Below, one piece after another: positions 20,575 to 63,143 of a DNA stretch of 64,000 bases; within the stretch, counting starts at the first letter, position 1, and each line of letters opens with the position of its first letter. A program made the translations under genes and the position numbers. Below the pieces are notes generated by a model that was not told the DNA's origin, made no database searches, and worked only from the letters and a program-made list of their open reading frames with translations. The stretch is from NCBI GenBank assembly GCA_949297015.1, contig CASFRF010000012.1, positions 1 to 64,000 on the forward strand, written 5' to 3'. The DNA comes from an uncultured bacterium. GTDB taxonomy: Bacteria; Verrucomicrobiota; Lentisphaeria; Victivallales; Victivallaceae.

Positions 20575-21284
20575 AAATTGAGGTGCTGACGCTTTTTCCG
20601 GAGGCATTTCCGGGGCCGTTGGGCGAGAGCATCACCGGTCGGGCGGTGGAGTCCGGACTGGTGACGGTCTCGGCGGTGAATCTGCGGGACTTCGCCCACG
20701 ATGCCCGGGGCACGGTGGACGACAAGCCCTACGGCGGCGGTCCGGGAATGCTGATGAAAGTGGAGGTGCTGTTTGAAGCGGTGGAGGCGTTGCGCCGGCC
20801 GGAGACGGCGGTGATCTTCCCGACGCCGCGGGGACGAAAGTTCACCCAGGCGCTGGCCCGGGAGTGGAGTACGCGCGAACATTTGCTGTTCGTCTGCGGG
20901 CACTACGAAGGGATGGACCAACGGGTGTACGACCGGCTGGCCGATTACGAGGTCTCGATCGGAGACTATGTGTTGACCAGTGGGGTGTTGCCGGCGATGG
21001 TGATGGCCGATGCGGTGATCCGGCTGCTGCCGGGGGCGCTCGGCAGCGGCGAATCGAGCGAACAGGAGTCGTTTTCGGAGTCGCTGCTGGAGTATCCGCA
21101 GTACACCCGGCCGCCGGAGTTCCGGGGGCTGAAGGTGCCGGAGGTGTTGCTCTCCGGCGACCATGGCCGGATTGAGCGCTGGCGGCGGGCGGAGTCGGAA
21201 CGGTTGACCCGGGAACGGCGGCCCGATTGCTGGCGGGAATATTTGAGAGATCGCAACAAAAAATCTGGAGGCAGACAGAGATGA
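20571..21284 (+). CDS. trmD: tRNA (guanine-37 N1)-methyltransferase
   Basis: 237 residues from a TTG overlapping the khpA stop. TrmD methylates G37 next to the anticodon and prevents +1 frameshifting. The trefoil-knot SAM site is clear: [49 protein letters not shown], and the C-terminal tRNA-binding part with [12 protein letters not shown]. The usual neighbour rimM is missing between khpA and trmD. The stop overlaps the rplS ATG. Confidence 0.97.
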
Positions 21285-21622
21285 ACATACTCGACAAGAT
21301 TCGTATGGAGCAGGTCAAGGCGGATCGTCCGGACTTCAAGGTCGGCGACACGGTCAAGATCTATGTGAAGATCGTGGAGGGATCCACCGAACGGATTCAG
21401 ATGTTTCAGGGCACGGTGATCGCCCGGCGCGGCGAGGGGATCGAAGAGACCTTCACCGTGCGGCGGGTGGTGTCCGGCATGGGCGTGGAGCGGGTGTTCC
21501 CGCTGAATACGCCGCGGATCGACCGGATCGAAGTCACCCGGCGCGGCGATGTCCGCCGGTCCAAGCTGTTCTATTTGCGGGATAAAATCGGCAAGGCGGC
21601 CCGGGTCAAAGAGGCGCGTTAA
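21281..21622 (+). CDS. rplS: Ribosomal protein L19
   Basis: 113 residues from the ATG at 21281 (TGGAGG ribosome site), overlapping the trmD stop. Family features: [58 protein letters not shown] and the C-terminal [19 protein letters not shown]19 sits at the 30S-50S interface. Confidence 0.97.
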
Positions 21623-21628
21623 GTCACC

Positions 21629-22285
21629 TTGCAGGTGTTGTCCGAAGACGACGAACTCCTTCGACCGGAACGCGAAGCCCGGGCGGAGGGGTTTTGTTTT
21701 GTGGCCGGAATCGATGAGGTCGGGCGCGGTCCGCTGGCCGGTCCGGTGGTGGCCGCCGCGGTCGCCTTTCCGGTCGCGGCGGCGGTGCCCCGGGTCAACG
21801 ATTCCAAGCTGTTGAGCCCGGCGGCGCGGGCTGAATTGTGCGCGGCGGTGCTGGCGGTACCCGGGGTGCGGGTGGCGCTGGCGGTGGTCTCCGCACCGGA
21901 GATCGATCGGTTGAATATTTTGCGGGCCACGGATCTGGCCATGCGCCGGGCGGCCGCCGCGCTGGCGCGGGAAGGGGTCGATTTTCTGCTGGTGGACGGG
22001 CGGCCGGTGCCGCAGTTGCCGCTGCCCTCGCGGGCGCTGGTCAAGGGTGACCGGCGTTCGGCGTCGATCGCGGCCGCTTCGATCGTGGCCAAGGTCTGGC
22101 GCGACCGCTGGATGGAGGAGCAGGAGTCCCGGTATCCGGGGTACGGCTTCGGGGAGCACAAGGGGTACGGTACGGCGGCCCATTTGGCGGCGCTGCGGCG
22201 GCTTGGGCCGTGTCCGCTGCATCGGCGGACGTTTCGACCGCTGCGGGATTGGTTGTCGAACGTGGAGCAAGGCGAACTGTTCTGA
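21629..22285 (+). CDS. rnhB: Ribonuclease HII
   Basis: 218 residues. RNase HII removes ribonucleotides from DNA and RNA primers. Catalytic acidic residues lie in AGIDEVGRGPLAGPV (Asp29, Glu30) and FLLVDGRPVP. The family block VKGDRRSASIAAASIVAKVWRD and GYGFGEHKGYGTAAH is complete. The start is set at TTG 21629; a GTG two codons later is equally possible and no strong ribosome site decides it. It follows rplS by six bases and joins the ribosomal cluster to thrS. Confidence 0.95.
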   Translation: MQVLSEDDELLRPEREARAEGFCFVAGIDEVGRGPLAGPVVAAAVAFPVAAAVPRVNDSKLLSPAARAELCAAVLAVPGVRVALAVVSAPEIDRLNILRATDLAMRRAAAALAREGVDFLLVDGRPVPQLPLPSRALVKGDRRSASIAAASIVAKVWRDRWMEEQESRYPGYGFGEHKGYGTAAHLAALRRLGPCPLHRRTFRPLRDWLSNVEQGELF

Positions 22286-22435
22286 AGAGGACGGGTGAGA
22301 AATTGAGTACGGATTGGTCGGAAAGGAGGACACCCCGCGCAACCGGCGCGGGCGGGACTCGCCGCTGAATCGGTTGCCCGCCGGCTGCCGCCGGAGGGAG
22401 AAGAGAACTTTTTCAGCGAGAACACAGGTGAAATC
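22286..22435 (+). other. rnhB-thrS spacer with hairpin, no T-box
   Basis: 150 bases with a purine-rich AAAGGAGGA and a 7-bp hairpin (CCCGCGC/GCGCGGG, 22334-22352). I searched for the T-box specifier layout and its conserved antiterminator bases and found none. A leader role for thrS is possible but unproven. Confidence 0.25.
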
Positions 22436-24166
22436 ATGAGTGAGATGGATTTGCAGACACGGCGCCACAGCGCGGCGCACATCATGGCCGCGGCGGTGCA
22501 GCAGTTGTTCCCCGGCGCCCGGTTCGATATCGGCCCGGCCACGGAGAACGGATTTTATTACGACTTCGACCTCGATCGCCGGTTGACCCCGGAGGATCTC
22601 AAGGAGATCGAGAAGACGATGAGGAAGTTGATCGGGCGGAAGATTCCGTTCGAGAGCTTCGAGCTGTCGCGCTCCGAGGCCGAGGCCCGGTTGCAGGCGG
22701 CCGGGCAGACCTTCAAGCTGGAGCGGCTGAAGGATATTCCGGAAGGGGAGGCGATTCGCTTCTATCGCTGCGGGGAGTTCTGCGACCTCTGCCGGGGGCC
22801 GCACGTCGAGCACGCCGGGCAGATCGGCGCGATCAAGCTGATGTCGGTGGCCGGGTCCTACTTCCGCGGCGACGAGAAGCAGCCGATGCTGCAGCGGATC
22901 TACGGAACCGCCTTCGCCACCGAGGAGGAGTTGCAGGCCTATCTCAAGCAGCTCGAGGAGGCGGCCAAGCGCGACCATCGCAAACTGGGGCAGGAGCTGG
23001 ATCTCTTCGGCTTTTCGGAGAACGTCGGTCCGGGGCTGGTGCTGTGGCATCCGCGGGGCGCGTTCATCCGGAATCTGATCGAGACCTTCTGGCGCGCCGA
23101 GCACTACGCCAACGGCTATGAGTTGCTGTACACGCCGCATATCGGGCAGAGCATTCTCTGGGAGACCAGCGGCCACCTTGACTTTTACAAGGACGGTATG
23201 TACGCGCCGATGCAGATCGACGAGAAGGACTATTTCGTCAAGCCGATGAACTGCCCGTTCCATATCGAGATTTACCAGTCGCGGCTGCGCTCCTACCGGG
23301 AGCTGCCGCTGCGCTGGGCGGAGCTGGGAACGGTCTACCGGTACGAGAAGTCGGGGGTGCTGCACGGCCTGTTGCGGGTGCGTGGATTCACCCAGGACGA
23401 TGCGCACATCATCTGCACTCCGGAGCAGATCGAGGATGAGATCGCCGAGGTGCTGCGCTTCAGTCTCTCCATCTGGAAGGCCTTCGGCTTCACCCGGATC
23501 AAGCCCTATCTGGCGACCCGTCCGGCCAAGGCGGTCGGCGCGCCGGAGCGCTGGGCCAAGGCGCTGGATTCGCTGGAAAAGGCGGTGAAGAAGGCCGGGC
23601 TGGAGTGCGAGGTGGACGAGGGCGGCGGCGCCTTCTACGGGCCGAAGATCGACCTCAAGGTCCGCGACGCGATCGGCCGGGAGTGGCAGACGACCACCAT
23701 TCAGTTCGACTTCAACCTGCCGGAGCGGTTCAATATGACCTACATCGGCGAGGATGGCCGGAAGCATCAGCCGTACATGGTGCACCGGGCGCTGTTCGGG
23801 TCGCTGGAGCGCTTCTTCGGGATTCTGGTCGAGCACTACGCCGGGGCGTTCCCGCTGTGGCTGGCGCCGGAGCAGGCGCGGATTCTGCCGGTTACGGAAA
23901 AGCAGCTGGCGTACGCCCGGTCGCTCCGGGAGGAGTTGCGCCGTCATGGCCTGCGGGTCGAGGTGGATGAGCAGGCCGCCGGACTGGGCGCCAAGATCAA
24001 GGATGCGCGCCGGGCGCGGATCCCCTATTTGCTGGTGGTCGGCGAGCGGGAGGTCGAAAGCGGCACCGTCGGGGTCCGCAGTCGGCGGGAAGGGGAGCTC
24101 GGGGCGATGGCGCCCGCAACCCTGATTGAAAAAATGCAGCTTGAAATTTCCGACAAAGTCTGCTAA
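22436..24166 (+). CDS. thrS: Threonyl-tRNA synthetase lacking the TGS domain
   Basis: 576 residues against about 640 in most bacteria. Residue 1 begins almost at the editing domain (RRHSAAHIMAAAV, HxxxH at 11-15) with its HV/C site RCGEFCDLCRGPHVEH. The N-terminal TGS (N1) domain is absent and the 150-base upstream spacer is too short to hold it. The class-II core is complete: motif 1 region, the zinc/threonine site MNCPFHIEIY, motif 2 WAELGTVYRYEKSGVLHGLLRVRGFTQDD, motif 3 with RALFGSLERFFGILVE, and the anticodon-binding tail. It charges tRNA-Thr. Confidence 0.96.
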   Translation: MSEMDLQTRRHSAAHIMAAAVQQLFPGARFDIGPATENGFYYDFDLDRRLTPEDLKEIEKTMRKLIGRKIPFESFELSRSEAEARLQAAGQTFKLERLKDIPEGEAIRFYRCGEFCDLCRGPHVEHAGQIGAIKLMSVAGSYFRGDEKQPMLQRIYGTAFATEEELQAYLKQLEEAAKRDHRKLGQELDLFGFSENVGPGLVLWHPRGAFIRNLIETFWRAEHYANGYELLYTPHIGQSILWETSGHLDFYKDGMYAPMQIDEKDYFVKPMNCPFHIEIYQSRLRSYRELPLRWAELGTVYRYEKSGVLHGLLRVRGFTQDDAHIICTPEQIEDEIAEVLRFSLSIWKAFGFTRIKPYLATRPAKAVGAPERWAKALDSLEKAVKKAGLECEVDEGGGAFYGPKIDLKVRDAIGREWQTTTIQFDFNLPERFNMTYIGEDGRKHQPYMVHRALFGSLERFFGILVEHYAGAFPLWLAPEQARILPVTEKQLAYARSLREELRRHGLRVEVDEQAAGLGAKIKDARRARIPYLLVVGEREVESGTVGVRSRREGELGAMAPATLIEKMQLEISDKVC

Positions 24167-24169
24167 AGT
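24141..24169 (+). promoter_or_regulatory. Candidate internal promoter for infC-rpmI-rplT
   Basis: TTGAAA (24141-24146), 17-base spacer, TAAAGT (24164-24169), overlapping the end of thrS. It would allow independent control of the IF3-L35-L20 genes. Confidence 0.5.
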
Positions 24170-24186
24170 ATGGGAATGATGAACGG

Positions 24187-24212
24187 GCGGTGGAAGCGGG
24201 GGCTTCCGCCGC
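24187..24212 (+). promoter_or_regulatory. Stem-loop in the infC leader
   Basis: An 11-bp stem (24187-24197 with 24202-24212, one G-T pair) capped by GGGG, between the candidate promoter and the infC ribosome site. No T run follows, so I read it as a leader structure rather than a terminator. Confidence 0.4.
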
Positions 24213-24244
24213 GCTTGAAAAAACTCTAAACGGAGGATACGGCT

Positions 24245-24754
24245 ATTGCTAAGTTGCTGAAACCCAATGACCGCACGTTCACGGCCGAGCAGGTTCGCCT
24301 GATCGGGGTGGACGGGGAGCAGTTGGACATTGTGTCGCTGGCCCGGGCGCGCGAAATGGCGCAGAACGCCGGGCTGGATCTGGTGCTGGTGTCCGATCGG
24401 TCGGTGCCGCCGGTGGTGCGCATCATGAACTTCGGGAAGCTCCAGTACGAGCAGAAGAAGAGTCTGAAGACGCAGCGCCGGAACAATCTCGCTCAGAAAC
24501 TCAAAGAGATCAAGTACCACATCAATATTGATCAGAACGATTACAATATAAAGATGAAACGGGCGCTTGACTTTTTGGAAAAAGGGTATAGATTAAAGCT
24601 TACGCTGGCGCTGCGGGGACGTGAAATGTCCCATCAGGACTTGGCGTACAGTCTCATGGCCCGGGTGCTCGGCGATCTGGCTCCCTATGGGGATCCGGAT
24701 GGAACGCCCAAGCTGCTCGGCCGGAGCATTACGGTGAATTTCGCCCCCAAATAG
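24245..24754 (+). CDS. infC: Translation initiation factor IF-3 with AUU start
   Basis: 169 residues. IF3 blocks premature subunit joining and proofreads the initiator tRNA and start codon. The frame has no ATG near its beginning. The best-placed ribosome site GGAGGA (24232-24237) is seven bases before an ATT (24245), giving [M]AKLLKPNDRTFTAEQVRL. A TTG three codons later is 16 bases from the site and less likely. An AUU start is the known hallmark of infC, letting IF3 repress its own translation. Domains: N-terminal AEQVRLIGVDGEQLDIVSLARAREMA, linker KSLKTQRRNN, C-terminal KEIKYHINIDQNDYNIKMKRALDFLEKGYRLKL. Confidence 0.95.
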   Translation: MAKLLKPNDRTFTAEQVRLIGVDGEQLDIVSLARAREMAQNAGLDLVLVSDRSVPPVVRIMNFGKLQYEQKKSLKTQRRNNLAQKLKEIKYHINIDQNDYNIKMKRALDFLEKGYRLKLTLALRGREMSHQDLAYSLMARVLGDLAPYGDPDGTPKLLGRSITVNFAPK

Positions 24755-31719: not shown

Positions 31720-33732
31720 TTACAGCGCCAGATTCCGGAGATAGTTCTCCAGCTGGGTCTGGGCTTCAAGACTCTGCTGTCGGGCGGTTTTGCGCTGCTG
31801 TTGCAGCGCGTCGAGCTGCTGAATCTCCTGATTGAGGCGGCTGACCAGCTGCTGCCGGAAGTCGTCGTTGCTGCGAAGCGCGTTGATGTTGTTCCGGGTC
31901 CGGGAGACGTTTTGATCCATCTCCTTGAGCTCCTGCTCCAGCGCCGCCACCTTGCGCTCGCTCAAGGTGAATTCCTGATAACGGCGGCTCGCCTCCTGCC
32001 AGGCTTCACGCTGTTCGGGAGTCAACTGCGCCGTGCTGAGGATGCCGCTGAACTGGTTCCAGTCCTGAGGACGCAGGGTGAACTTTTCCTCGATCACCCG
32101 GCGTTGCTCCACCGGAAACACCAGCGTTTTTTTGGGCTCCAGCGTCAGGCGGAACCGGTAAAAACCGTTTTCCGTTTTCCAAGGCTTCAATTCCGGCGCC
32201 AGCTGCCACTGCGGCTCTTCGCGGACATAGAGCAGCAGCGTCTGCGGCTTCTCCCCCTGATTGATGAATTGATACTCCACCACGTTGCGCAGGGTTTTGG
32301 CCGCCTCCAGCGTGCCACGGAGAAATTTCACGCTCTGATATTCCTGTTTCTGGACGAGGTCTTTGACTTCGGTCTTGACATCCAGCGCCAGACTGTAGCG
32401 GATCACCGCGTCACCGGAAGCGACCAGATTCGGCAGTTCGGAGTCGCCGCCGTAGGCATTCTGATCGTAGACCGCCAGCGGTCCCCGCAGCAGCAGTTTG
32501 TTGCTGGAGTTGGTCAGCAGCGCTCCGTTGTAGGGATAAGTCTGACCGTCTTCGCGATTGAAGAGCAGCAGCTTCTCCGCCGGGATCGCCTCCGAGATCA
32601 GCTCGAGCATGGTGGATTGACGGCGTTCCAGCGAGACCGGGTGTTCGATCTTGTATTCAAAGAGTTCCCCCAGTTCGGAGCCCGCCACCGCCGGAACTCC
32701 CGCCCCGGCTTTCCGGCCCCAGCTTTGCTGCTCGTACGCGACTTCTGCTTCGCGTTTGCGGTCGGCATCCGCCGCGGCCAGTTGCTTGTTCGCCCGCGAC
32801 AGTACCTGGGCCGGAGCCGGGGCCGCGCTCACGGCATTGAGAAAAAAGCTGTTGCCCTCGGCCAGCGCCCGCTCGCGCAGCACCGGCAGCGTGGGGCGGT
32901 AGCGATATTGGGACTGGTAGAGGTTCTGAAGCAGGAATACCGGATCCCCGGAGACCAGCGAAAGCTCCAGCCCGTTCCAGTCGCTGTCGGTCTGGTTTTC
33001 CACGATCGCCCAGCCCTGCAGCAGAGCCCGGTCCTTGAGTTCGGGGTCGAAGACCAGGCGGTAACTGGTCTTCCAGATCGGCGTCTCCATGGTGTAGCCG
33101 AAGCGGACCCGGCGGCGATTCTGCCCCAGAAACTCGATGGTGAACGGTTTGCGGTTCCCATTGCGGTCGGAGGCGAGGACTCCGAGCGCCTTATGCAGCT
33201 CCTGCAGCACCTTGGCGTCGGTCGGCGCAAAGGTGCGGATCGACTCCAGCGGCAGCATCTCAATGCCGCCGGAAGTGAGCAGACTGACGCTCTCGACCGG
33301 CAGCTGATTCTGAGAGCTTTTGGTCTCCACGCCGAGTACGGTGCCGGTGAATTGGCGATTGGTCACGGTGTGGAAGGCAACTTCGGCGCCGCGCAACTGG
33401 CGCAGCAGATCGGCGGCGGTCAGATTCCCGGAGACGTTGATCGGAAACGCTTCGAGCGCCTTGTTCAGCGGATTCTGCGCGGGGTAGCGGATCAGCCCGA
33501 TGCTGCCGCCGTCCAGATCCTGAATGACCAGCGTTTTGAGCAGATCGTTCAGCTGTTCTGCGGTGAAATTGAGCGTGCAGCGGTCATTGCCTTCGACCGT
33601 TCCCTCGTGCTCGAAAAAGCCGACCCCCGAGGTGTACAGCACCAGTCGTTTGACCGGAATTTCCGCCGCTCCCAGGCCGCTCCCCCAGAGCAGCAGCCCC
33701 GACAGCACCAGACTCGAAACCGACACTTTCAT
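31720..33732 (-). CDS. DUF4139-like exported protein
   Basis: 670 residues from ATG 33732 (AGGAGGT ribosome site). Signal peptide (MKVSVSSLVLSGLLLWGSGLGAAE). The N-terminal region (LVLYTSGVGFFEHEGTVEGND) and the later beta sandwich (FGYTMETPIWKTSYRLVFD, WAIVENQTDSDWNGLELSLVSGDPV) fit the DUF4139/mucoidy-inhibitor-like family, whose function is unknown. A C-terminal coiled coil (about 580-665, rich in Gln, Arg, Leu) follows KFTLRPQDWNQFSG. It has its own candidate promoter (33765-33792), so it may be independent of the kinase operon directly upstream. Confidence 0.6.
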   Translation of the reverse strand: MKVSVSSLVLSGLLLWGSGLGAAEIPVKRLVLYTSGVGFFEHEGTVEGNDRCTLNFTAEQLNDLLKTLVIQDLDGGSIGLIRYPAQNPLNKALEAFPINVSGNLTAADLLRQLRGAEVAFHTVTNRQFTGTVLGVETKSSQNQLPVESVSLLTSGGIEMLPLESIRTFAPTDAKVLQELHKALGVLASDRNGNRKPFTIEFLGQNRRRVRFGYTMETPIWKTSYRLVFDPELKDRALLQGWAIVENQTDSDWNGLELSLVSGDPVFLLQNLYQSQYRYRPTLPVLRERALAEGNSFFLNAVSAAPAPAQVLSRANKQLAAADADRKREAEVAYEQQSWGRKAGAGVPAVAGSELGELFEYKIEHPVSLERRQSTMLELISEAIPAEKLLLFNREDGQTYPYNGALLTNSSNKLLLRGPLAVYDQNAYGGDSELPNLVASGDAVIRYSLALDVKTEVKDLVQKQEYQSVKFLRGTLEAAKTLRNVVEYQFINQGEKPQTLLLYVREEPQWQLAPELKPWKTENGFYRFRLTLEPKKTLVFPVEQRRVIEEKFTLRPQDWNQFSGILSTAQLTPEQREAWQEASRRYQEFTLSERKVAALEQELKEMDQNVSRTRNNINALRSNDDFRQQLVSRLNQEIQQLDALQQQRKTARQQSLEAQTQLENYLRNLAL

Positions 33733-33764
33733 AACGGACCTCCTGTATTTGATGTTGCCAGTAG

Positions 33765-33794: not shown

Positions 33795-35747
33795 TCAGTC
33801 CTGATGAATCCGGGCATTTTCGGCCAGAATCTCCTCCAGCCGGGCCGCCGCCCGCTCCCACTGCTTCATGGTCGACTCGAGCTTGTTCTGGATTTCAAAC
33901 AGTTCGCGGTTGATGGTGGCGAAGTCGGGCCGGGAATTGACCGTCAGCTCCTGCGTGATCTCCTGCTGCCGGGCCTCCAGCCGGGCCATCTCCGCTTCGC
34001 AGCGGGCGACCGCCTGCTCGGTTTTCCGGCGCTCGGCGGCCAGTTCGTTGCGTTTCCGGGCCCGCTCCTGCCGCCGGGCCCGGGCCGCGTCCACGCTGAC
34101 CGTCTCGGGCTTCTTCGTCTCCGGTGCGGCGTTCGCGGCCGACTTCTCCAGATAGTAGTCGTAATTGCCGAAGTATTTGCGGATCCGCGGGGGCTCCATG
34201 GCGATGATGCCGGTGGCGACGTTGCGGACGAATTCGATGTCGTGACTGACCACGCAGACCGTGCCTTCGTAGCGGCGCAACGCCTCCTGCAGCAGCTCCC
34301 GGGCCGCCACGTCCAGGTGGGTGGTCGGCTCGTCGAGCAGCAGCAGATTGGGGGGATTGACGAAAATCCGCCCGAAACAGAGCCGGATCTTCTCGCCGCC
34401 GGAGAGCACTTTGCAGGGTTTGTGCATCGCCTCGCCCGAGAAGCCGAAGGACCCCGCCACATTGGGCAGCTCCTTCAGACTCGCGCCCGGCGGCAGCGCC
34501 CCGCGCAGCACGTCGTAGACCGACTGCTCCGGCGGCAGAATGTCGGCGAACTCCTGCGCCTGATAGCCGATCACCGTGTGGTGCCCCGGAATCACCCGTC
34601 CGGTCTGCGGACGGAGCACGCCGGCCATCAGCTTCAGCAGCGTGGTCTTGCCGGTGCCGTTGTAGCCGACAAAGGCGAGCTTTTCGCCGCGCTCGATCCC
34701 CAGTGAAATGTCCCGCAACACCGGCTCGGTCTTGCCGGGGTAGGTGAAACTCACGTCCTCCAGCCGGATCGCCTCCGCGCCCGAGGGGGGAGGGGGCGGA
34801 AACCGGATCGCACCCTGATAGCCGAGTTCGGGCGGCAGCTCGATGTCCTCGATCTTGTCCAGCGCCTTCTGCCAGCTCCGGGCCTGGGCGGCCTTGGTGG
34901 CCTTGGCCCGGAACCGTTCGATGCCCCGGGCCAGATGCTCCTTTTTGCGATCCTGATTGCGTTTTGCCGCCTCCAGCGCCCGGCGGCGGTTTTCACGCTC
35001 GGTCCGGTAGTAGTCGTAGTCCCCGGCGTAGCGGGTGGCGGTGCCGCCGTTGATTTCGAGCGTCAAATTGGTCAGTTTCCGCAATAGATAGCGGTCGTGC
35101 GAGATCAGCAGCAGCGTTCCGGCGAATGATTTCAGGAAGCGACAGAGCCACTCCACCGCCGGGATGTCCAGGTAGTTCGACGGTTCGTCCAGCAGCAGGA
35201 TGTCGGGCTGCGCGATCAGCACCCGGGCCAGCGCTGCGCGCATCTGCCAGCCGCCGCTGAAGGCGGACAGCGGCCGGTTCAAGGCCTCCGGCGCGAAGCC
35301 GAGGTTGCCCAGCGCCGCCTCGGCCTCCACCCGGAGCCGATAGGCCCCCAAGTGTTCGATCCGGGTCTGAAGTCGTCCGTGCCGCTCCAGCAGCGCTGCG
35401 GCCTCGGGCGCACCGGGTTGCAGTTCGGACATCCGGTGTTCCAGCTCCTTGAGCTCGGCAATCATCATCTTCAGCTCGGGAATGGCGTCGGCGGTGAAGT
35501 CGATCAAACTCCGTTCGAGGTGGTCGGCAGGCAGCTGCTTGAGGTAGCCGATCCGGTGATCGCGGGGCACGATCACCGTCCCCCGGTCCGGCAGCCCCTC
35601 GCCGGTGATCAGACTGAAAAAGGTACTCTTCCCGGCGCCGTTGGGGCCGACAATACCGATCCGGTCGCCCGGATTGATCCGCAGCGTGGTCTCCTTGAAG
35701 ATCTCTTCGCCGCCGAAACTCTTGCAGACATTCTGAAACTCAATCAT
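33795..35747 (-). CDS. ABC-F family ATPase
   Basis: 650 residues, two fused nucleotide-binding domains and no membrane part. Walker A motifs GPNGAGKST (N-domain, about 36-44) and GYNGTGKTT (C-domain). Signatures LSAFSGGWQMR and VLSGGEKIRL, Walker B LLLDEPSNYLD and LLLDEPTTHLD. Between them is the ABC-F linker, and a basic coiled coil ends the protein (ARRQERARKRNELAAERRKTEQ). ABC-F proteins bind the ribosomal E site and relieve stalled translation or antibiotic blocks. The start overlaps the kinase stop (ATGA), so it is coupled to a signalling gene, which is unusual. Confidence 0.9.
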   Translation of the reverse strand: MIEFQNVCKSFGGEEIFKETTLRINPGDRIGIVGPNGAGKSTFFSLITGEGLPDRGTVIVPRDHRIGYLKQLPADHLERSLIDFTADAIPELKMMIAELKELEHRMSELQPGAPEAAALLERHGRLQTRIEHLGAYRLRVEAEAALGNLGFAPEALNRPLSAFSGGWQMRAALARVLIAQPDILLLDEPSNYLDIPAVEWLCRFLKSFAGTLLLISHDRYLLRKLTNLTLEINGGTATRYAGDYDYYRTERENRRRALEAAKRNQDRKKEHLARGIERFRAKATKAAQARSWQKALDKIEDIELPPELGYQGAIRFPPPPPSGAEAIRLEDVSFTYPGKTEPVLRDISLGIERGEKLAFVGYNGTGKTTLLKLMAGVLRPQTGRVIPGHHTVIGYQAQEFADILPPEQSVYDVLRGALPPGASLKELPNVAGSFGFSGEAMHKPCKVLSGGEKIRLCFGRIFVNPPNLLLLDEPTTHLDVAARELLQEALRRYEGTVCVVSHDIEFVRNVATGIIAMEPPRIRKYFGNYDYYLEKSAANAAPETKKPETVSVDAARARRQERARKRNELAAERRKTEQAVARCEAEMARLEARQQEITQELTVNSRPDFATINRELFEIQNKLESTMKQWERAAARLEEILAENARIHQD

Positions 35748-38308
35748 TCATGCAAATCCATCATGGTTCCCGGCTCTTCTGCCGCCGGATTGCGGGAGGG
35801 AAACTCCACCACATAGCGGAATCCGAGATCCGGCCCGGGTTCCGCCGTGTAATCGGTGTGGCCGCACCGGGCCAGCACCGGCGCGGTGGCGAACGAACCG
35901 CCTTTGATCGCATAGTAACCGGGCCCCAGCTCCGGCTCGGTGACCAGTTCGCGAACATTCCCGGTCAGGTCGGAGACGCCCGGCCGCGAGGTGTCCTCCG
36001 GGAAACTCCCCGGCGCCGCGCCCGCCGGATGACCGGCCGCTTCCGGATGGTCGGCCAGCAGGGCCTTGCCCGGAACGTATTCGTCGCCCCAGACGTACTC
36101 CCGGCTGTCGCTGCCGCGGGCCGCTTTCTCCCATTCGGCGGCGGTCGGCAGCCGACAGGTCAGGCCGAGTCGTTCGCCGAGATAGCGGCAGAAGGCCGCT
36201 GCCGCCTCGCCGGTGATCCCGACCACCGGCAGTTCCGGGCGGTAGGGGGCGCGGAGGCGGCCCTGATCATCCCAGAGCTCCACCACCTCCCCGGTGTCGC
36301 GGTCGACGATCCGGGCGCGATAGCGGTTGCGCTCCGCCGGGGTCTTCAACTGCCGCCAGAAGGGGAGATAGTCGCCGAAGGTCACCTCGTTCCGGGCGAT
36401 GAAAAAGCCGGGGAGCCGCATCTTTTCCAGCACTCCGAGACTCCGGTTGGTCAAGTAAAATTCTCCCGCCGGAATGTAGACGGTCCCCGCCGGAATGGTG
36501 TTCGGCAGCTCCAGCTCAATCCGGTTTACCGCTCCACTGCGGATGGACAGCGGCGTCTGAATCGGCGGATAGCCCGGCGCCGACGCGCTCAAGCGGTAGT
36601 TGCCGGCGGGAATTTCGGCGGTCAGCGGCGATTCGCCGAGGGGACGGACCCGGCCCTCCTCATCCTGAAGCAGCAATTTGGAGGGCGGGATGGTGGTGAT
36701 CTCCAGCGTGCCGGTGGCGTTGCGGAGCTGGCGGATCTTCTGGCGCAATGCCGGGTTGAAGGCGATGATCTGATTGAAAGCCACCTGCCGGCGGCTGCGG
36801 GCCTGTTGCAGCCGACTTTCCAGCATCGAGTAGTTTTCCGTCTTGAGGAAGAATTCGAGCTCGCGATCGATGATCCGGCCGATCAGCCGGTGGATCCCGG
36901 GCAGGTCATAGCCGAGTCTCTCCGCCTGACTGAGCAGCTCGAAAGCGGCATCGTCGTAGTTGATGAACTCATTGCTGAAGCGGAGCAGTTCGGTCGCCTG
37001 ATCCGGATTGCGGTTCAACTGTTGGTAGGCCCGTTCCGCAGCCCGGAGATTCAGTTCGCCCTTTTCCATGCTGTACTCGGCCATCTGCAGCAAGGACCGG
37101 CCCTGATAGTAGGCGTCGATCTTCTGAAAGACGGCGAACCCGCCCAGAATCAGCCCCGCCATCAGCATGGTCATCGGAATCAGAGGGTGGCGGCTGCACA
37201 GTTTGATCAGTCGGTAGAAGGGCGGCGGCGAGTAGGCGCTGACCGGGTATTTGTCCATGAAGTTGCGGACATCTTCGAGCATCGCCTCCACGCTGGGGTA
37301 ACGGTCCTCCTTGTGCCGGGCCATCGCCTTGAGCACGATCGCTTCGAGCTCCCGGGGAATTTTCAGCTTCGGCGCGCGGCGCCGGGGCGGCACAAAGCGA
37401 CCGTTGATCACCTGTTTCAGCAGCGCCGAAGTTTTCAACGAGGCGTCGAAGGGAGCGTTTTCCAGCGTCAGCAGCGAATAGAGAATCGTGCCCAGCCCGT
37501 ATTGGTCGCTCTTTTCATCCACCTCGTTCTCCAGCCCCAGCGCCTGTTCCGGCGCCATGAACGCAGGGGTGCCGCTGATCCGGGCTTGGCTGGCGGGGAG
37601 CTCCTCTTCGTCCGGAACATCGATTTCGGCGTCGAGTCGGAGTCGGCTGATCCCTTCGGAAGTGTCCTTCTCCGCGCGGTACTGCGCCAGCCCCCAGTCC
37701 ATGACCAGCACCTCGCCGTAGTCCCCGAGCATGATGTTGCTCGGTTTGAGATCGCGGTGCAGAACGCCCCGGCTGTGGGCATAGGCCACTCCCTGACCGA
37801 TCGCCAGAAAGATCTCCAGCCGCCGGTTCAGCGAGTACTTCCGCCGATACTCCGGATCTCCGTTCTGGAGTTTCTTGAGCATGGAGCGGAGTGTCTCTCC
37901 CTCCACCCGCTTCATGGTGAAGTAGACTCCGACGTCGTCGAAAATCCCCAGATGATGCACCGGAATGATGTTGGGGTGCCCGATCTGGGCGGTGATCCGG
38001 GCCTCGCGGATGAAGCTTTCCAGATAACGGGGATTGCCCCGGAACTCCGGGCGCAGAATTTTCAGCGCCACCTCCCGGTTCAACCCCGGTTCCCGGGCCG
38101 CGAAGACCGCTCCGTGGCCTCCGAACCCGATGGTGGAAAGCGTCCCGTAGGCGTTGATCCGGTTGCCGTCGGTCAGATCCAGAATCTGCCGCAGCTCCTC
38201 GATGCTGAGTTGGTCTTCTCCCGATAGGTCTCCCGTCACATAGGTCCGGTCATCCCCGCCGCAGGTGCTGGAGGTTCTGGCTTCGTCAGCGGAGGAATCG
38301 GTCTTCAT
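35744..38308 (-). CDS. Ser/Thr kinase with PEGA and formylglycine-enzyme-like domains
   Basis: 854 residues. A Hanks-type kinase fills about 55-352: Lys83 (VALKIL), HRDLKPSN at 184-191 with Asp186, DWG at 204-206 in place of DFG, and APE at 252-254. One membrane helix follows at about 376-396. Outside are a helical segment, a PEGA-like repeat (about 550-625, LTAEIPAGNYRLSASAPGYPP), and a C-terminal SUMF1/FGE-sulfatase domain (PAGEFYLTNRSLG, FFIARNEVTFGDYLPF, CRLPTAAEWEKAARG, SDLTGNVREL, GGSFATAPVLARCGH). The FGE-like domain in kinases is usually a sensor or ligand-binding module, not an enzyme. It overlaps the coiled-coil gene upstream by 23 bases and the ABC-F gene downstream. Confidence 0.88.
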   Translation of the reverse strand: MKTDSSADEARTSSTCGGDDRTYVTGDLSGEDQLSIEELRQILDLTDGNRINAYGTLSTIGFGGHGAVFAAREPGLNREVALKILRPEFRGNPRYLESFIREARITAQIGHPNIIPVHHLGIFDDVGVYFTMKRVEGETLRSMLKKLQNGDPEYRRKYSLNRRLEIFLAIGQGVAYAHSRGVLHRDLKPSNIMLGDYGEVLVMDWGLAQYRAEKDTSEGISRLRLDAEIDVPDEEELPASQARISGTPAFMAPEQALGLENEVDEKSDQYGLGTILYSLLTLENAPFDASLKTSALLKQVINGRFVPPRRRAPKLKIPRELEAIVLKAMARHKEDRYPSVEAMLEDVRNFMDKYPVSAYSPPPFYRLIKLCSRHPLIPMTMLMAGLILGGFAVFQKIDAYYQGRSLLQMAEYSMEKGELNLRAAERAYQQLNRNPDQATELLRFSNEFINYDDAAFELLSQAERLGYDLPGIHRLIGRIIDRELEFFLKTENYSMLESRLQQARSRRQVAFNQIIAFNPALRQKIRQLRNATGTLEITTIPPSKLLLQDEEGRVRPLGESPLTAEIPAGNYRLSASAPGYPPIQTPLSIRSGAVNRIELELPNTIPAGTVYIPAGEFYLTNRSLGVLEKMRLPGFFIARNEVTFGDYLPFWRQLKTPAERNRYRARIVDRDTGEVVELWDDQGRLRAPYRPELPVVGITGEAAAAFCRYLGERLGLTCRLPTAAEWEKAARGSDSREYVWGDEYVPGKALLADHPEAAGHPAGAAPGSFPEDTSRPGVSDLTGNVRELVTEPELGPGYYAIKGGSFATAPVLARCGHTDYTAEPGPDLGFRYVVEFPSRNPAAEEPGTMMDLHE

Positions 38309-40127
38309 TCCGTTCGATTTCCCTGGTCACGGCGCGGGCCCGGCTGCCGAATTCCTCGTAGATGCCTTCCGCGTTGGCGGGCGTGAAGGGGAGTGCGGTC
38401 ATTTGCTTCCAGTTCAGTTCTGTCGGCAGCACGGCGCAACGGGCCTCCTGACGGCGACCGAGATCGAAGTTCTCCTGGGAGACGATCACCCCCACCAGCT
38501 GCCCCTGTTTGGTCAGCACCAGATCGCCGATCTCCGCCCGGAGCTCACTGCCGGTACCGCGCGCGGCATTGCGGATGTACAACGCCTCGTCCCCAGCCGA
38601 AAAGTTGATCGAGCAGCGACCGTTCAGCAGCGCGCTCTCCTTGCCGAAACTCTCGGTTTTGAACAAGTACAGATCCTGAATTCCCCGCTGTTTGAGCTCC
38701 TCCCAGCCGAGGACCGGCAGCGGTTTGCGATCCAGCTCCGGCAGCGGCAGCAAGGCGATTCGCGGATCGCCGGGGAGGATGTACAGCGGCCCCGGTACCG
38801 GTCCGCCGTTGCGGCCCTCCGCCAGTTCCGGCACCGAGCACAGATAGCTCAGTCGGCTGACCCGCTCAAAGGTGAGATTCCCCGCCTGATTCCCGGTCAG
38901 CAGCCGGGTGTCGCTGACCAGCACGTTGCGGTCGCCGATCCGCACCAGCGGCAAATAGAGTTTCGGTTCGCTCTTGACGTCGAGCACCAGCCGCCGCTCG
39001 TGGATCGCCAGACTCAGCTCCACCACCGCCTCGGCGTAACTTTCCAGCACATTGTCGCGCAGCTTTTCCTCGGCCTCCTGCAGCAGCTCCTGCGTATGGG
39101 CCAGCTTCTGTTCGGCGGCTCCGGCGCGGGTCTGCTGTTTGGTCAGTTCCGCGGCGGTGGCGGTCTCGCGTTTCCGCGCCTCCTCCAGCTCGCCCTTGGC
39201 GCGGGAGAGGTCGCTGACCGCGTTTTTCACCACCAGCTGGAGATTGCCGACCTGCTTGCGCGCCTCGGCCAGCTCCAGTTCGCGGGCCTGAATCTGGCGC
39301 TGCGCCCGTTCGTAACGGCTCTGCGCCTCGGCCAGCTCCTTTTCCGCGGTGGTGGCCCGGCCGCGGACAAACGCCAGATCGGTCTGCACCGTCTGAATTT
39401 GTCGTTGCAGCTGCTGGGCGCTCTGCTGCGCGCTGGTCAGCTGAGCCCCGCGCTGCTGCAGGTCCCCCTGCAACTCGGTCAGGCGCGCATCGCGTCCGGC
39501 CAGCTGTTCCTGAGTCCGGGTCAGCTGTTCGCGGGTCCGGGTCAGCTGTTCTCCGGCCTGCGCCAGCTCGCGGGTCTTTCCGGCCGCCTCCTGCCGGGCC
39601 TGATCCAGCGACTCACGGGTGCCGGAGAGCTGTTCCTGCGTCCGGGCCAGGCTTTCGCGGGCGGCGAGCAGCTGGGAGCTGGTCTCCTGCTGCAACCGGC
39701 GGAGCTCTTCGAGCTCGTAACGGGCCGACTCATTGCGGACCTTGAGCAGGGCCCGGCGTTGGATCTCCTCTTCCAGCTGCTTTTGCAGTGCCTCGGGCGA
39801 GAGGGCTCCGGCGTTCTCCGGCCGCAGGGACCGGCGTTGCTCGAGGAACTCAACCTTGGCCTGGGTTTCGGCCAGTTTTCGCTCCAGTTCCTGGAGCTGG
39901 GCCGAGGAGTCTGCGTTGCGCTGCTCCCGGATCAACTGCACGCGGGCGGCCTCCAGTTTCTGTTGTTCCTGCCGCAACTCCGCGGCCAGCAGCCGCAGCG
40001 CGGGCTCGTCGATCACCTGCGAGCCACCGGCTCCGAACGGACTGTCCGAGGGCACCAGCCCGGTGCTCAACGTGAGCATCGAGGAGACGATGAAGTCGCA
40101 GATGACGATCAGAATCGAGCGGTTCAC
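38286..40127 (-). CDS. Membrane-anchored coiled-coil protein, MotB/ExbD-like N-terminus
   Basis: 613 residues of no family I can name. Residues 4-22 (SILIVICDFIVSSMLTLST) form a short membrane helix with a buried Asp11, as in the channel helix of MotB (YADFMTAM) or ExbD. About residues 45-360 are a continuous coiled coil, extremely rich in Gln, Glu, Arg and Ala, with near-heptad repeats such as REQLTRTQEQL. The C-terminal ~230 residues are globular. IGDLVLTKQGQLVGVIV there resembles the region after the active-site serine of trypsin-like folds, but no catalytic serine is visible. The start overlaps the ExbB/MotA-like gene stop (ATGA), implying a complex. Ion-channel stator partner is my inference. 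Confidence 0.6.
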   Translation of the reverse strand: MNRSILIVICDFIVSSMLTLSTGLVPSDSPFGAGGSQVIDEPALRLLAAELRQEQQKLEAARVQLIREQRNADSSAQLQELERKLAETQAKVEFLEQRRSLRPENAGALSPEALQKQLEEEIQRRALLKVRNESARYELEELRRLQQETSSQLLAARESLARTQEQLSGTRESLDQARQEAAGKTRELAQAGEQLTRTREQLTRTQEQLAGRDARLTELQGDLQQRGAQLTSAQQSAQQLQRQIQTVQTDLAFVRGRATTAEKELAEAQSRYERAQRQIQARELELAEARKQVGNLQLVVKNAVSDLSRAKGELEEARKRETATAAELTKQQTRAGAAEQKLAHTQELLQEAEEKLRDNVLESYAEAVVELSLAIHERRLVLDVKSEPKLYLPLVRIGDRNVLVSDTRLLTGNQAGNLTFERVSRLSYLCSVPELAEGRNGGPVPGPLYILPGDPRIALLPLPELDRKPLPVLGWEELKQRGIQDLYLFKTESFGKESALLNGRCSINFSAGDEALYIRNAARGTGSELRAEIGDLVLTKQGQLVGVIVSQENFDLGRRQEARCAVLPTELNWKQMTALPFTPANAEGIYEEFGSRARAVTREIERNEDRFLR

Positions 40128-40672
40128 TTCTCAACTCCGGCGGTGAGATTCAGCAGCTTCTGGCGGAACGGGAAGAGCAGCGTCACCCGCAGCGCCAGGC
40201 TGAAGATGATGCCGATCAGGGTCGAGGAGTAGGCGATCAGTCGCGCGCTCTGGGGCGAGAAGGTCATGACCAGGAAGGAGGACACGGTTCCGAACAACCC
40301 GATGTAGAGCGGCACGTCGAAGAAGATGTCCGCCCCCTCCAGCTGACGCAGTTTGAATTCCGGCGCCACCGCGTTGCGCTTGATCCGGCGGAGGACGGTC
40401 AGCGCGAGGAAGAAGGCGAGAAACTGCATGGCGGTCACCACCGCGAAGATGTACATGGAGATGCGTCCGGCCAGCTCCACCCGGGCGGCCAGCGTCTGCT
40501 GCGAGGCCGGATCGACCCGGCCGATCACGCCATTCCCGGCGCTTTCGCCGCAGAACAGCACCCGGCAGTACTCGGAGTGATCGAACAGTTGTGCCATGCC
40601 GTAGATGAAGGCGGCGGCCAGCACCAGCAGGAGAATGCCCAGTAGGAGGTTGGATTTGAAGTTCTTCTTCAT
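40124..40672 (-). CDS. Small membrane protein, ExbB/MotA/TolQ-like
   Basis: 182 residues from ATG 40672 (GAGGAT ribosome site), downstream of a strong promoter. Four membrane helices are predicted by eye: 9-29, 71-94, 118-138 and 144-166. The third contains PLYIGLFGTVSSF, close to the PLLGLLGTVxG channel motif of ExbB/TolQ, and the fourth (YSSTLIGIIFSLALRVTLL) matches the place of the ExbB partner helix. There is a periplasmic loop with two Cys (residues 36 and 41) between helices 1 and 2. The next gene encodes a protein with an Asp-bearing single helix, so the pair has the logic of a proton-driven stator. Family assignment is inferred from short motifs. Confidence 0.55.
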   Translation of the reverse strand: MKKNFKSNLLLGILLLVLAAAFIYGMAQLFDHSEYCRVLFCGESAGNGVIGRVDPASQQTLAARVELAGRISMYIFAVVTAMQFLAFFLALTVLRRIKRNAVAPEFKLRQLEGADIFFDVPLYIGLFGTVSSFLVMTFSPQSARLIAYSSTLIGIIFSLALRVTLLFPFRQKLLNLTAGVEK

Positions 40673-40721: not shown

Positions 40722-40750
40722 AATATAACACCGGTTGATAACGTTTGCAA
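40722..40750 (-). promoter_or_regulatory. Promoter of the ExbB-like/kinase operon
   Basis: Minus strand TTGCAA (40745-40750), 17-base spacer, TATATT (40722-40727), 49 bases upstream of the first gene. Confidence 0.7.
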
Positions 40751-54794: not shown

Positions 54795-56710
54795 TCAGAG
54801 CGAGGGCACCGCGAAGATGCTGAACGAATAATCGCTCATGTACTTCTTTTCGTTGGTGCTGGTGATCGCCGCGTAGTAGGAGACCCCGGCCTCCAGTTCC
54901 TTGGTCAGCAGCGTGTTCCCCTTGAGGATCGCCGAGGAGCTCAGGCTGCCCATCGAGCGGCCCTTCTCGTCGTAGACGGTCAACTTCAGGTTCTGCTTGG
55001 CGGCCACGTTGGTCAAACTCAGCAGCGCCTTGCCGTCGCTGTCGAGCTGGAACTTGTAGTAGTCCGCCGCGTCGCTGAATCCGACCCAGCCGGTAACCGA
55101 GTCGCCGGACTTCATCGCCTGCTGCGTCGAAGCCTGCGCCAGGGTGTCGTTGGTGTGATCCGCCTTGGTGTAGTCGTTGGCGGTGATCACCAGCTCGTAG
55201 GAGCTGTTGCGCTCCGGCCGGGTGGCCGACTGGAAGAGGTAGGGCGAGTAGACCTTGATCATGTAGGTTTCGCCCTCCTTCAGCGTATCGCTGGTCTTGA
55301 GGTCGTACCCGGAGATCGCCACCTGCCCGGCGGCGCTGTCCACCTTGCCGCTCTTGAGCGTGCGGAAGGTACCCTTGGCGCTGACGATGCCGATCTTGAA
55401 CCGGAGATTCTTGGCGTTGAAGGCGAAGTCCGGATCGTCCGGATTCTGCAGCGTGAAGGTGAAGTTCCCCGCGAAGTCATCCACCGTGAAGGCGTAGTAG
55501 TCGACCTTGTCGCCGTAGCCGATCCAGCCCACCGTCTCCGAGCCCTTGGCGAGCGGCGTCAGCTGCATCGCCTCCAACGTGGTGTCGTTGTTCCGGTTGG
55601 CCAGGGTGTGATTCTGACCTTCGACCGTCAGCTCGTAGGTGCTGTTCTTCTTCTTGCCGTTGTCGGAGGAACGGACCTTGATGAAGTAGGTTCCGGTCTC
55701 CAGCTGGCGATCCAGCTCGATGGTGCCGGTCTTGCTGCTGTACTTGCCGGTGGCGACGGTCTTGAACGCGCCGGTACGGCCCTCCGTGCCGATGTAGAGC
55801 TTGAGGTTTTTCGGCAGATAGGCCAGCGACTGGTTCTGCGGATCGGTGATGGTGAAGGAGTAGCTCCCGGAGACCGCGGTGACCTCGAACCGGTAGTAGT
55901 CCAGCGCGTCGCTGTACCCGACCCAAGATTTGAGGTTGCTGCCGATGGTCAGCGCCGGGTTCTTCTTGGCTTCCGCCAGCGTGTTGTTGTCCAGATCGGC
56001 CAAGTCGAAGTAGCCGCCGTCGACCGACAGCGTGTAGGTGCTGTTCTTCTTCTTGCCGTTGTCCGCGGAGTAGACCTTGAGGTAGTAGGTGGTGTTCGCG
56101 TCGAGAAGCTGCGTGGTCGTCAGGTCACTGAGCGAACTGACCGTCTTCTTGGCCACAAAGGTCCCCTTGGAATTTACGGTGCCGAAGGCGAGGCGCAGAT
56201 TCTTCTCGTTGTAGGCCAGCCCCTCCAGATCACCGGCGCTGAGCGAGAAGGTGAACTCCCCGGCCAGATCGCCCGTGGTGAACTTGTAGAAGTCCACCGC
56301 GTCGGTGTACCCCACCCAGTCGGAGGCCGATTCCCCGAGGTTGATCGCGGTTGCGGTCCCCGGCTGGTTGTCGCTGAGGTCGCTCGGGAAGTAGGCGCCG
56401 GTGGCGGTGAAGGTGTAGTAGTCCTGCGACTTGTCACCGCTGGTGATGGCGACGTAGTAGGTCCCCTTGTCGAGCTGGATCTCCGCGCCGTTCTTGTAGC
56501 TGATCTTCTTGGTGTCGGCCCGGTACAGAGTCAGATTCACCTTGCCGGTGGAAGCCGTGGCGGTGAAGCGGAACAGCCCCGCCTCCTCCTCGTCGAGCGT
56601 GAACTTGAAGTAGTCCGCCGCATCGCCGGCGCCGCCGACGTCCTCGATGATCGTCTGATTCGGGGACACCTCCTTGGCGTTGCCGAAGTCGTTGCCGGAG
56701 TCGACCAGCG
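54795..56710 (-). repeat. Five PPC-like C-terminal repeats of the giant protein
   Basis: Encodes five related beta units of roughly 110-150 residues. Each opens with a polar D-N-x-T-x-x-A motif, continues with WVGYSDAxDYYxFxV, and ends with a T-Y-x-I/L-x-V strand (as in NSTYELTVEG). PPC domains are common C-terminal extensions of secreted bacterial proteases and glycosidases and may help secretion or surface attachment. Unit boundaries are approximate. Confidence 0.7.
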
Positions 56711-59700
56711 GCATGAAGCTGCTGGGCGTGCGCGGCGCCTCGCTGACGTTGCCGGCGCCGTCGACGGCCCGGACCCGCCAGTAGTAGGTCTTCATCGGCT
56801 CCAGATCCTCGAGCACCAGCGTGGTGTCCTCGGTCTGGATCTGCGTGAATTCGCTGAATTTGCGGTCGAAGGAGTATTCCACCACATAGTAGGCGATTCC
56901 GGACTTGTCGTCGGTGGAGGCGCGCCAGCTCAGCGTGGCGGTCGTCTCGTTCAGCGAGGACTGCAGCGACCGCGGCGTCTCCGGCGGAATCAGGTCCCCG
57001 GTGGTGAAGCTCTGACCGGTCACCGCCGTGGAGGCGTTCTGATTCTCCGAGGTGTCGATGGCCCGGACCCGCCAGTAGTAGGTGGTGGTGTCGCCCAGCC
57101 CGTCGATCGTGCAGCTCAAGTCGCTGGTAGTGGTGCTCTTGAAGATCCGGCTGAACTGCGGATCGGTCGAGAGCTCGACCAGATACTCCACGCCGGAATG
57201 GGCGTCGGCGGAGGCGCTCCAGCTCAAGGTCACCGCGTCCCGGTTGAGTTCGGCACTCAGGCCGGAGGGCTCGCTCGGCGGCGTGATGTCGTAGGTGGTG
57301 AAGTTCTCGCCCTGAACCGTCTGGCTCCGGTAGCCGTACGAGTTGACCGCATAGAGCCGCCAGTAATAGGTGGCGCACTCCTGCAGGTCGCTGTAGGGCA
57401 GCGCGGTGCCGCTGGAGACCTGAATGGATGTGCTGTCGAGGAAGGAGGCGTCGGTCGCGATCTCCACCACATAGTAGTCCACCGGCCAGCCGCTCTTGAC
57501 CACCGAGGGGCTCCAGCTGAAATAGGCCAGATTGGAATTAGAAACCACCGTCACGCTCAACTCATCCGGCTCGCCGGGGGCGGTCGGGAAGTTGGTCGTG
57601 AAGCTGCCGGTGATCCACGAAGAGGCGCGGTCGTCATCCGGTTGGAAGACAATGGTACGGACCCGCCAGTAGTAGGTGGTCAGATCCTCCAGCCCCGAGA
57701 CGCTGACGGAGAGATCGGTGGTCCCGCCGCCCCAGAGCATCGTACCCGCCGTGCCGCCGTCAACGGTGAAGGCCGCGTCGGAGAGTTGCCACTCGTACCC
57801 GAGGATGTCGGTATCCTCCGCCGAGGGCGAAGCTCCCCAGCTCAGGAGATAGGACTTCTGCTCGTCGCTTTCCAGCGTGGCCGCCGGGTTGAGCGTGACC
57901 GGCGGCAGCAGCGGCGTGACGGTGAAGGAGTCGACCGTGCTTTCGGGGCCGATGTTGCCCGCCTGATCGACCGCCTGGACCTTCCAGTAGTAGGTGGTGG
58001 CCTCGTCGAGCGGGGAGCCCCAGACGCTGTAGAGTTCGTCCTGCGTCACGCCCGTCGTGCTGACCGTGATGCTCACGCACTTGGAGGCGCCGTCCTCGGT
58101 GGTGGTGAAGTTGGCGTTGTCGGCGAAGGTGAAGAGGTAGTCGCAGGGATTGGACTTGTTGTCGATCACCTCGTCCCAGACGAAGTTGTAAGGACCGATC
58201 GCCGCCGGTCCGACCACGCCGGTGACGGCCCCCGGCAACGTGTCGTCCACAAGGTCGACGGCGGTGGTCCCCTCAAGGGCCGGCGTCACGTTCTCCCGGG
58301 CATCGGTGGCGGTGACCTTCCAGTAGATGGTCTTCAAATCGACCTCTTCGGTGGAGAAGGACTGACTGTAGGAGTTGGTCGTTCCTTCATAGGTGCCGAG
58401 CACGTTGCTGAAGTCCGCCGTATCGGAGAAGGTCAGGTTGTACACCACGTCGCCGGGCCGGTTGTCGGTCGCCACATCCCAAGTGAAGTCCAGCGTGGCG
58501 CCGGTTTCGGTGGAGCCCGTGACGGTCAGCGTCGCGTTATTCAGCCCTTCCGGGGGAATGGTATCGACGTAGAAGGAGTCTCCCGTCGTTACCGCGCTGA
58601 CGTTTCCGGCCCAGTCGATCGCCTGCAGCGTCCAGTAGTAGGCTTCGACGTCGTTGCTGAGGTTCTCCAGCGTGTAGCTGGTGGGCGCTTCGGCGCCGAA
58701 TTCGTCGGCGGTGACCGAAATGATGATCTCGTTCTCGAAGGCGGCATTGTCGGCGTAGGTCAGGATGTAGCCCTTGAGTCCGCTCTGATACTTGTCGCCC
58801 GCTTCCGGATCGCCGTCGCTGCTCGGGGTCCAGCTCAACGTGACGTTGAGCTGATCGGGGGTGGCCAGCAGATCCGAGGGCGCGCTCGGGCCGGACTCGT
58901 CCTTGACGTAGACCAGGAAGGAGTCGCCGTAGACCCAGTTGCTCTGATTGCCCTGATTGTCAACGGCTTTGACCCGCCAGTAATAGAAGGAGTAGTTGGT
59001 CAGGCCCGAAGCGATCAGCTCGTTGCCGGTGACCTCCTTGCGGATGACGCCGCTCCGGAATTCGGAATCCTGCGAATATTCGATCAGGTACTTCCGGATG
59101 TTGTTGGCCGGATTGCCGTTGTCGTCCTGCACGGCACTCCAGGTCAGCGTGGCGACGGACCCTTCCAGATCGAACCGGGCGTTGCCCGGATCGTTGGGCG
59201 CCGCGCTTTCCTCATAAGTGAAGTCGTCGCCATAGGCCCAGTTGCCCTCGTCGCCGGCGCCGTTGCCGTTGCAGTCAACGGCCTTGACCCGCCAGTTATA
59301 GCTCTCGCCGCTTTCCAGCAGCGAACCGTCCAGCACCACGCTGCTGACGACGCGTGAACTCTCATAGACCGCGCCCACGGTCTTGGTGGTGACCACTTCG
59401 GTCGCGGTCACTTCCAGCGACTGCGCGTTGCTCCAATCCGCGTCGGAGGCGAGTTTCCACTCCACGACGTAGGCTTTGACCCCGCTGGCGTCGGTGACGT
59501 CGCTCCAGTCCAGATAGACGCCCTCTCCGCACGAACCGGCGTTCAGGAGGTCGGCTCCGGTGCCGTCCGCTCCGGCTTGGCTCATGCCCGTGAGAATGCT
59601 CGGCGCCGTCGGAGCGGTGGTGTCGGCGGCGGTGTCGACCAAGAAGCTTTCGGGGAGGGCCTTCCAGTCGCTGCGCTGACCGTCGGCGGTCACCGCCATC

Positions 59701-63059: not shown

Positions 63060-63143
63060 GTCTTTCCTCCACACCTGTGTTGACAATGCCTGATCCCCCC
63101 GGATTGCGGCATTGATGTCGGTTAAAAATACACTTCCAATCGT

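Follow-up and report, generated by a model that had tools for sequence, protein, structure and literature searches.

A conserved gene pair of Verrucomicrobiota that probably works like an ion-driven stator

Introduction

Do four overlapping genes in an uncultured Victivallaceae bacterium encode an ion-driven stator, and is a protein kinase part of it? Known ion-driven stators are few (flagella, Ton, Tol, gliding, and Zorya). TolQ-TolR and ExbB-ExbD are 5:2 ion-driven motors, and MotB binds its ion at a conserved Asp halfway through the membrane, a residue also present in TolR and AglQ/S (PMC9389320). PMC12204202 describes a ring of Thr residues around the partner Asp as an essential common feature of MotAB, ExbBD, and TolQR, and reports TolQ-like/TPH-vWA pairs in Verrucomicrobia. 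An account of the diversity of generic ion transporters (PMC12505986) is also among the closest literature.

The cluster lies in a 64,000-nucleotide stretch of DNA, the window. A first-pass annotation made from the sequence proposed that the first two genes, termed A and B here, form a divergent proton-driven channel linked to the kinase encoded by the third.

Results

Organization of the locus

The cluster is made up of the following features.

40124..40672, minus strand: gene A, 182-residue four-helix membrane protein, putative MotA/ExbB/TolQ-like channel subunit (ORF and homologues)
38286..40127, minus strand: gene B, 613 residues, GTG start; Asp helix, coiled coil, and globular carboxyl terminus; follows A nearly everywhere
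35744..38308, minus strand: transmembrane Ser/Thr kinase, 854 residues, with PEGA and FGE-like domains (Pfam)
33795..35747, minus strand: ABC-F ATPase, 650 residues, last of the overlapping set (NCBIfam ribo_prot_ABC_F, above cut-off)
40722..40750, minus strand: promoter-like site upstream of A, TTGCAA-17-TATATT (consensus match only)

All four minus-strand ORFs described in the first-pass annotation are present, and they overlap by 4 (A/B), 23 (B/kinase), and 4 bases (kinase/ABC-F). The first overlap had been read as ATGA and is GTGA, with GTG as the start codon of B. The site upstream of A matches the promoter consensus at 9 of 12 positions and carries a TG before the second hexamer. It had been called a strong promoter; the site stands and the adjective does not, because shuffled sequence yields 0.9 sites of this quality on average. 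The A/B arrangement is not a chance one, since the two genes are conserved and adjacent in more than 100 genomes.

A 671-residue protein with weak DUF4139/mucoidy-inhibitor-like matches (31720-33735, minus strand) begins 60 bases after the ABC-F gene. It was rejected as a fifth member of the cluster on finding no homologue at the other loci. Elsewhere in the window, an ORF of 2763 residues (54795-63086, minus strand) contains several fibronectin type III domains and likely encodes a very large surface protein, and an ORF of 1184 residues (20966-24520, minus strand) matched nothing in Pfam at E ≤ 0.001.

A and B are a strict pair

Homologues of A are present as a single copy per genome in 37 of 61 relatives. 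A profile search detected A in single copy in 55 of 58 genomes of the same family and, among 388 genomes drawn from across the phylum, in 125. Of the three same-family genomes without A, one (G011) retains the B gene and the ABC-F gene in a locus that is cut off at the contig end, and the absence of A there is therefore probably a matter of assembly. When about 85,000 species were scanned with a sequence pattern, nearly all named matches came from Lentisphaeria, including Victivallis vadensis DSM 14823. Among the genomes surveyed, several families of the same order lack the pair. Neither A nor B was found in the plasmid collection, and A, the only one of the two searched there, was not found in the phage and viral collections. 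Single-copy, near-universal within its family, and missing from these collections, A is inherited like a core gene. Over the range covered by these searches, the A-B family is probably specific to Verrucomicrobiota.

At 202 of 206 A loci, the next gene on the strand of A is an ORF of at least 150 residues; the B helix with its Asp is seen in 196 of those 202. Some of the remaining A loci lie at contig ends, and at others the ORF had been chosen in the wrong frame. The genes are clearly unlinked in one genome (G355), where the B homologue lies about 70 kb from A on the same contig and keeps the CDF motif with the Asp. The first-pass annotation would have been refuted had the two genes never been neighbors in homologues; they are neighbors almost everywhere. 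These results identify A and B as a strict pair.

Conserved positions of A

Two sites of A recur in the comparisons below.

40283..40300, minus strand: GLFGTV motif of A, residues 125–130; Thr129 aligns to E. coli TolQ T145 (hhalign)
40220..40222, minus strand: Thr151 codon of A (AYSST), aligned to TolQ T178 (hhalign)

As first described, the 182-residue product has four hydrophobic helices with GLFGTV in the third. Tyr123, Gly125, Ala147, Tyr148, and Gly154 are each invariant in 140 of 140 unique homologues. In the same set, position 129 is occupied by Thr (124) or Ser (16), and position 151 by Thr (113) or Asn (27). With these positions aligned to the TolQ pore threonines, A shows the pore-type Thr residues in its last two helices that mark MotA, TolQ, and ExbB. 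These proteins also have a sizeable cytoplasmic domain between the helix pairs, which A does not; in the fold model and the alignment, about 25 cytoplasmic residues link helix 2 to helix 3.

More distant Verrucomicrobiota often carry the A domain as the carboxyl-terminal part of a longer protein, mostly of 520–610 residues. Most of loci L181–L200, from other Verrucomicrobiota, have an amino-terminal region of about 400 residues ahead of the A domain. This region has no Pfam match; kinase fusions were considered for the longer proteins and ruled out, as the region lacks a Pfam kinase match.

B combines an Asp helix, a coiled-coil rod, and an HtrA-fold end

B contains an amino-terminal helix with Asp11, a coiled coil, and a globular end, as had been read from its translation.

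40095..40097, minus strand: Asp11 codon of B, candidate ion-binding residue; Asp in 196/196 loci
39048..39785, minus strand: heptad coiled coil of B, residues 115–360
38388..39026, minus strand: HtrA/trypsin-fold domain of B, predicted to be catalytically dead, about residues 368–580 (AlphaFold2 and Foldseek)
38523..38528, minus strand: Gly534-Asp535 of B, remnant of the G(N/D)SGG hairpin with SGG missing

Asp11 sits in the single amino-terminal helix of B. To guard against circularity, the Asp column was masked when the profile of the B helix was made, and with this blind profile the Asp is present at all 196 loci and in 140 of 140 unique pairs. A single amino-terminal helix with an invariant Asp, encoded beside the channel subunit, is a feature of MotB, TolR, and ExbD, and B has it beside A. 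Residues 115–360 have a heptad period of 3.5 with a power of 22.8, whereas none of 300 shuffles exceeded 7.5. A straight rod of about 245 heptad residues would measure about 36 nm. This is long for the periplasm, and the rod may therefore bend or run along the wall. The start codon of B is GTG or TTG in 80 of the 140 unique pairs, mostly from Lentisphaeria, and is mostly ATG in distant Verrucomicrobiota homologues. The GTG and TTG starts may keep the output of B below that of A and so set a low B:A ratio.

Residues 352–613 of B were modeled by AlphaFold2 with a pLDDT of 93 and a pTM of 0.91. Foldseek matched this model to DegP, HtrA1, DegQ, Deg1, and DegS with E values down to 4e-6 and a probability of 1.00. 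Gly-Asp are the only invariant columns in a 53-sequence alignment of the B end (Asp535 in 53/53), and this GD leads straight into the next strand. The consensus is mostly G-D-(F/L/Y)-(V/L)-x-(T/S)-x-x-G-x-(F/L)-(V/I)-G-(V/L), and the equivalent stretch of HtrA is G-N-S-G-G-P-L-V-N-x-x-G-x-(V/I)-(V/I)-G-I. The 53-sequence alignment contains no conserved His, no GxSGG is present among its listed rows, and no PDZ domain was found in B. With Ser-Gly-Gly missing and no conserved His, the modeled end of B is a pseudoprotease with the HtrA/DegP fold. This assignment is new here, and the first-pass annotation had overlooked the most informative part of B. The body of B would lie in the periplasm because it includes the HtrA-fold domain and no basic residues follow the helix.

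Comparison with MotA, ExbB, and TolQ

Neither A nor B has a specific match in Pfam, NCBIfam, or PADLOC. PF01618 (MotA_ExbB) matched neither the A protein of the window nor five Verrucomicrobiota A proteins, and the 25 families listed at E ≤ 1 for 37 A homologues do not include it. For B, neither PF02472 (ExbD) nor the MotB plug gave a Pfam match at E ≤ 1. The searches with ExbB/MotA and ExbD/MotB models that the first-pass annotation had put forward as a check on its stator reading therefore recognize neither protein. Sequence searches of the PDB returned a designed helical bundle and a GPCR for A, both chance matches, and only other coiled coils for B.

Profile–profile alignment was performed with hhalign against 30 ExbB/TolQ sequences of the same order plus E. 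coli. A scored 31.4, compared with 14.8 ± 2.6 for 60 block-shuffles (maximum 20.6) and 12.2 for the reversed sequence; the hhalign probability was 20–42%, with the signal mostly from GLFGTV. The maximum-accuracy alignment, unprompted, placed Thr129 of A on TolQ T145 and Thr151 on TolQ T178 in the helix-3/4 hairpin. The B helix aligned to ExbD/TolR no better than shuffles did. A null of real membrane families from the same loci yielded one unrelated family, 21.5 versus 32.2, which is too few for statistics.

A 1:1 read-through construct of A plus the B helix was modeled with AlphaFold2 using a relative with in-frame genes and the stop read as Gly, giving a pLDDT of 77 and a pTM of 0.64. The best ExbB/TolQ/MotA match of this model in Foldseek had an E of 1.2, without significance, and MotA/PomA/ExbB/TolQ chains made up 14 of the first 50 weak matches; the fold comparison is thus suggestive only. 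Direct couplings between A and B agree weakly with membrane depth in an exploratory, underpowered analysis with too few sequences, about 68 effective (p = 0.01–0.04 over four cut-offs), and the positive control, helix 3 with helix 4, was also without significance; the coupling analysis is a weak hint.

Strict pairing, the invariant Asp, the TolQ-aligned Thr residues, the topology, and the weak but non-random profile match lend good support to the core of the first-pass proposal, a divergent stator-like pair driven by ions. We infer that the pair probably works like a 5:2 stator, and we do not claim its membership in the MotA/TolQ/ExbB family.

Outside the window, in the same genome, a 329-residue ORF (G000:C41:20142-20327) has a weak MotA_ExbB match (E = 1e-5). 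ORFs of about 300 residues in several relatives also have weak MotA_ExbB matches, possibly marking another divergent stator family.

Kinase and ABC-F genes

Pfam detects Pkinase, PEGA, and FGE-sulfatase domains in the third gene product, which has one transmembrane helix near residues 375–395, in line with its earlier description as a membrane kinase with PEGA and formylglycine-enzyme-like domains. Among 84 neighbors, the catalytic Lys, the H(R/C/G)DLK motif, and DWG are conserved, and judged by these motifs the kinase looks active. In the FGE-like domain of the window kinase, a single Cys (Cys815) lies near the GGS...GFR motif; the domain is therefore likely a sensor rather than an enzyme.

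The first set of loci comprised 36 A loci from Victivallaceae-type and allied families. The kinase gene directly follows B in 30 of them, with two of the other six at contig ends, and the ABC-F gene follows in 13. Neither a kinase nor an ABC-F gene was found near the pair at any of 20 loci of other Verrucomicrobiota. The pair is therefore the old unit, and the kinase operon is a later, lineage-specific addition. The proposed tie of kinase and ABC-F to the pair is thus not general; gene order links the kinase to the pair in most Victivallaceae-type genomes.

Discussion

The model we favor starts with several copies of A, five by analogy, that would enclose two Asp helices of B. A periplasmic proton (or Na+) would bind Asp11 of B within a ring of Thr129 and Thr151 of A, and its release to the cytoplasm would turn A against the B dimer. 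A has almost no cytoplasmic domain, and work would therefore be delivered outward. The output would run along the periplasmic coiled-coil rod of B, whose pseudoprotease tip would bind a partner at the cell wall or outer membrane. Victivallaceae-type bacteria appear to have placed the pair in an operon with the transmembrane Ser/Thr kinase, often with ABC-F too, and this kinase would probably regulate (gate) or read out the complex. Ion coupling of the stator kind is the likelier mode of action for A and B, and the explanation as a whole is favored to the same moderate degree.

The pair resembles TolQ-TolR and ExbB-ExbD in being encoded by two genes, in the single partner helix with an invariant Asp, in a helix-3/4 hairpin bearing G-x-x-G-T and Thr residues aligned to TolQ T145 and T178, in an N-in topology deduced from charge, and in a force presumably used in the periplasm. 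It differs in that PF01618 and PF02472 do not recognize it, in the four helices of A, of which the second and third are separated by roughly 25 residues on the cytoplasmic side, in having a heptad coil and an HtrA-fold pseudoprotease in place of the ExbD/TolR periplasmic domain, and in having no TonB/TolA gene nearby. The TPH-vWA systems (PMC12204202) likewise join a TolQ-like pentamer to an unorthodox partner with a helix Asp predicted in a Thr ring; there the partner is a von Willebrand A protein and the A subunit is recognizably TolQ-like, whereas here the partner is a coiled coil with an HtrA pseudoprotease and A is unrecognized by Pfam. The carboxyl-terminal domain of B shares a trypsin-like fold (Foldseek E of 4e-6) and a predicted periplasmic location with HtrA, DegP, and DegS, but it is without the catalytic His and Ser-Gly-Gly, is fused to a coil and an Asp helix, and has no PDZ domain. 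No description of the A-B pair was found in the portions of the open-licence literature searched.

The strongest alternative, although rather unlikely, is a passive membrane scaffold or sensor in which A anchors a B dimer and no ion flows. The pseudoprotease would bind misfolded or unprocessed envelope proteins and pass its state to the kinase or other effectors, and the Asp and Thr would be structural helix-packing residues. A non-catalytic HtrA-fold end points to ligand binding of the kind seen in DegS/HtrA sensing, in one family the pair adjoins a kinase that has a periplasmic part, and known stators have neither a sequence nor a significant fold match to A and B. This alternative leaves unexplained the lone-helix Asp in 140 of 140 pairs, the two polar positions aligned to the TolQ pore Thr residues, and the existence of the pair without a kinase in other Verrucomicrobiota.

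Replacement of Tol-Pal or Ton, with the pair energizing outer-membrane constriction or uptake in this lineage, is very improbable. It would accommodate the periplasmic rod, the Verrucomicrobiota-wide spread, and the motor-like signature residues. However, the genome itself encodes a canonical ExbB (G000:C89) with an adjoining ExbD, as do all tested relatives, and the cluster has no TonB/TolA/Pal-like gene; A-B is therefore an extra. Least credible of all is a Zorya-like anti-phage motor sensing phage entry with the kinase and ABC-F as effectors: a stator-like pair with a long coiled coil and a kinase recalls the ZorAB theme, and the kinase domains match defense kinases such as PD-T4-6 and mad6, as any Hanks kinase would, but the ZorA/ZorB models match neither protein (PADLOC; B gives coiled-coil type matches only), the coil is in B and periplasmic whereas the ZorA tail is cytoplasmic, and the single-copy presence in 55 of 58 same-family genomes, with none found on plasmids, phages, or viral contigs, is not the patchy distribution of a defense system.

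Even granting ion coupling by A and B, functional coupling to the kinase is possible but somewhat doubtful. The most elaborate version, a Verrucomicrobiota-specific rotary motor with a pseudoprotease-tipped rod as axle that is switched by or reports to the kinase in Victivallaceae-type bacteria, is unlikely. If true, it would be either a motor under kinase control or a mechanical sensor of the envelope.

Each new branch of stators is another route for energy from the inner membrane to the envelope. Nearly all sampled genomes of one Lentisphaeria family carry the A-B pair, which is also widespread in Verrucomicrobiota, so that a probable motor of a major phylum has been left unannotated, invisible to Pfam and NCBIfam. 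Its pseudoprotease tip suggests an output unseen in other stators, and the kinase operon of the Victivallaceae-type bacteria offers a testable case of signaling tied to an ion-driven complex.
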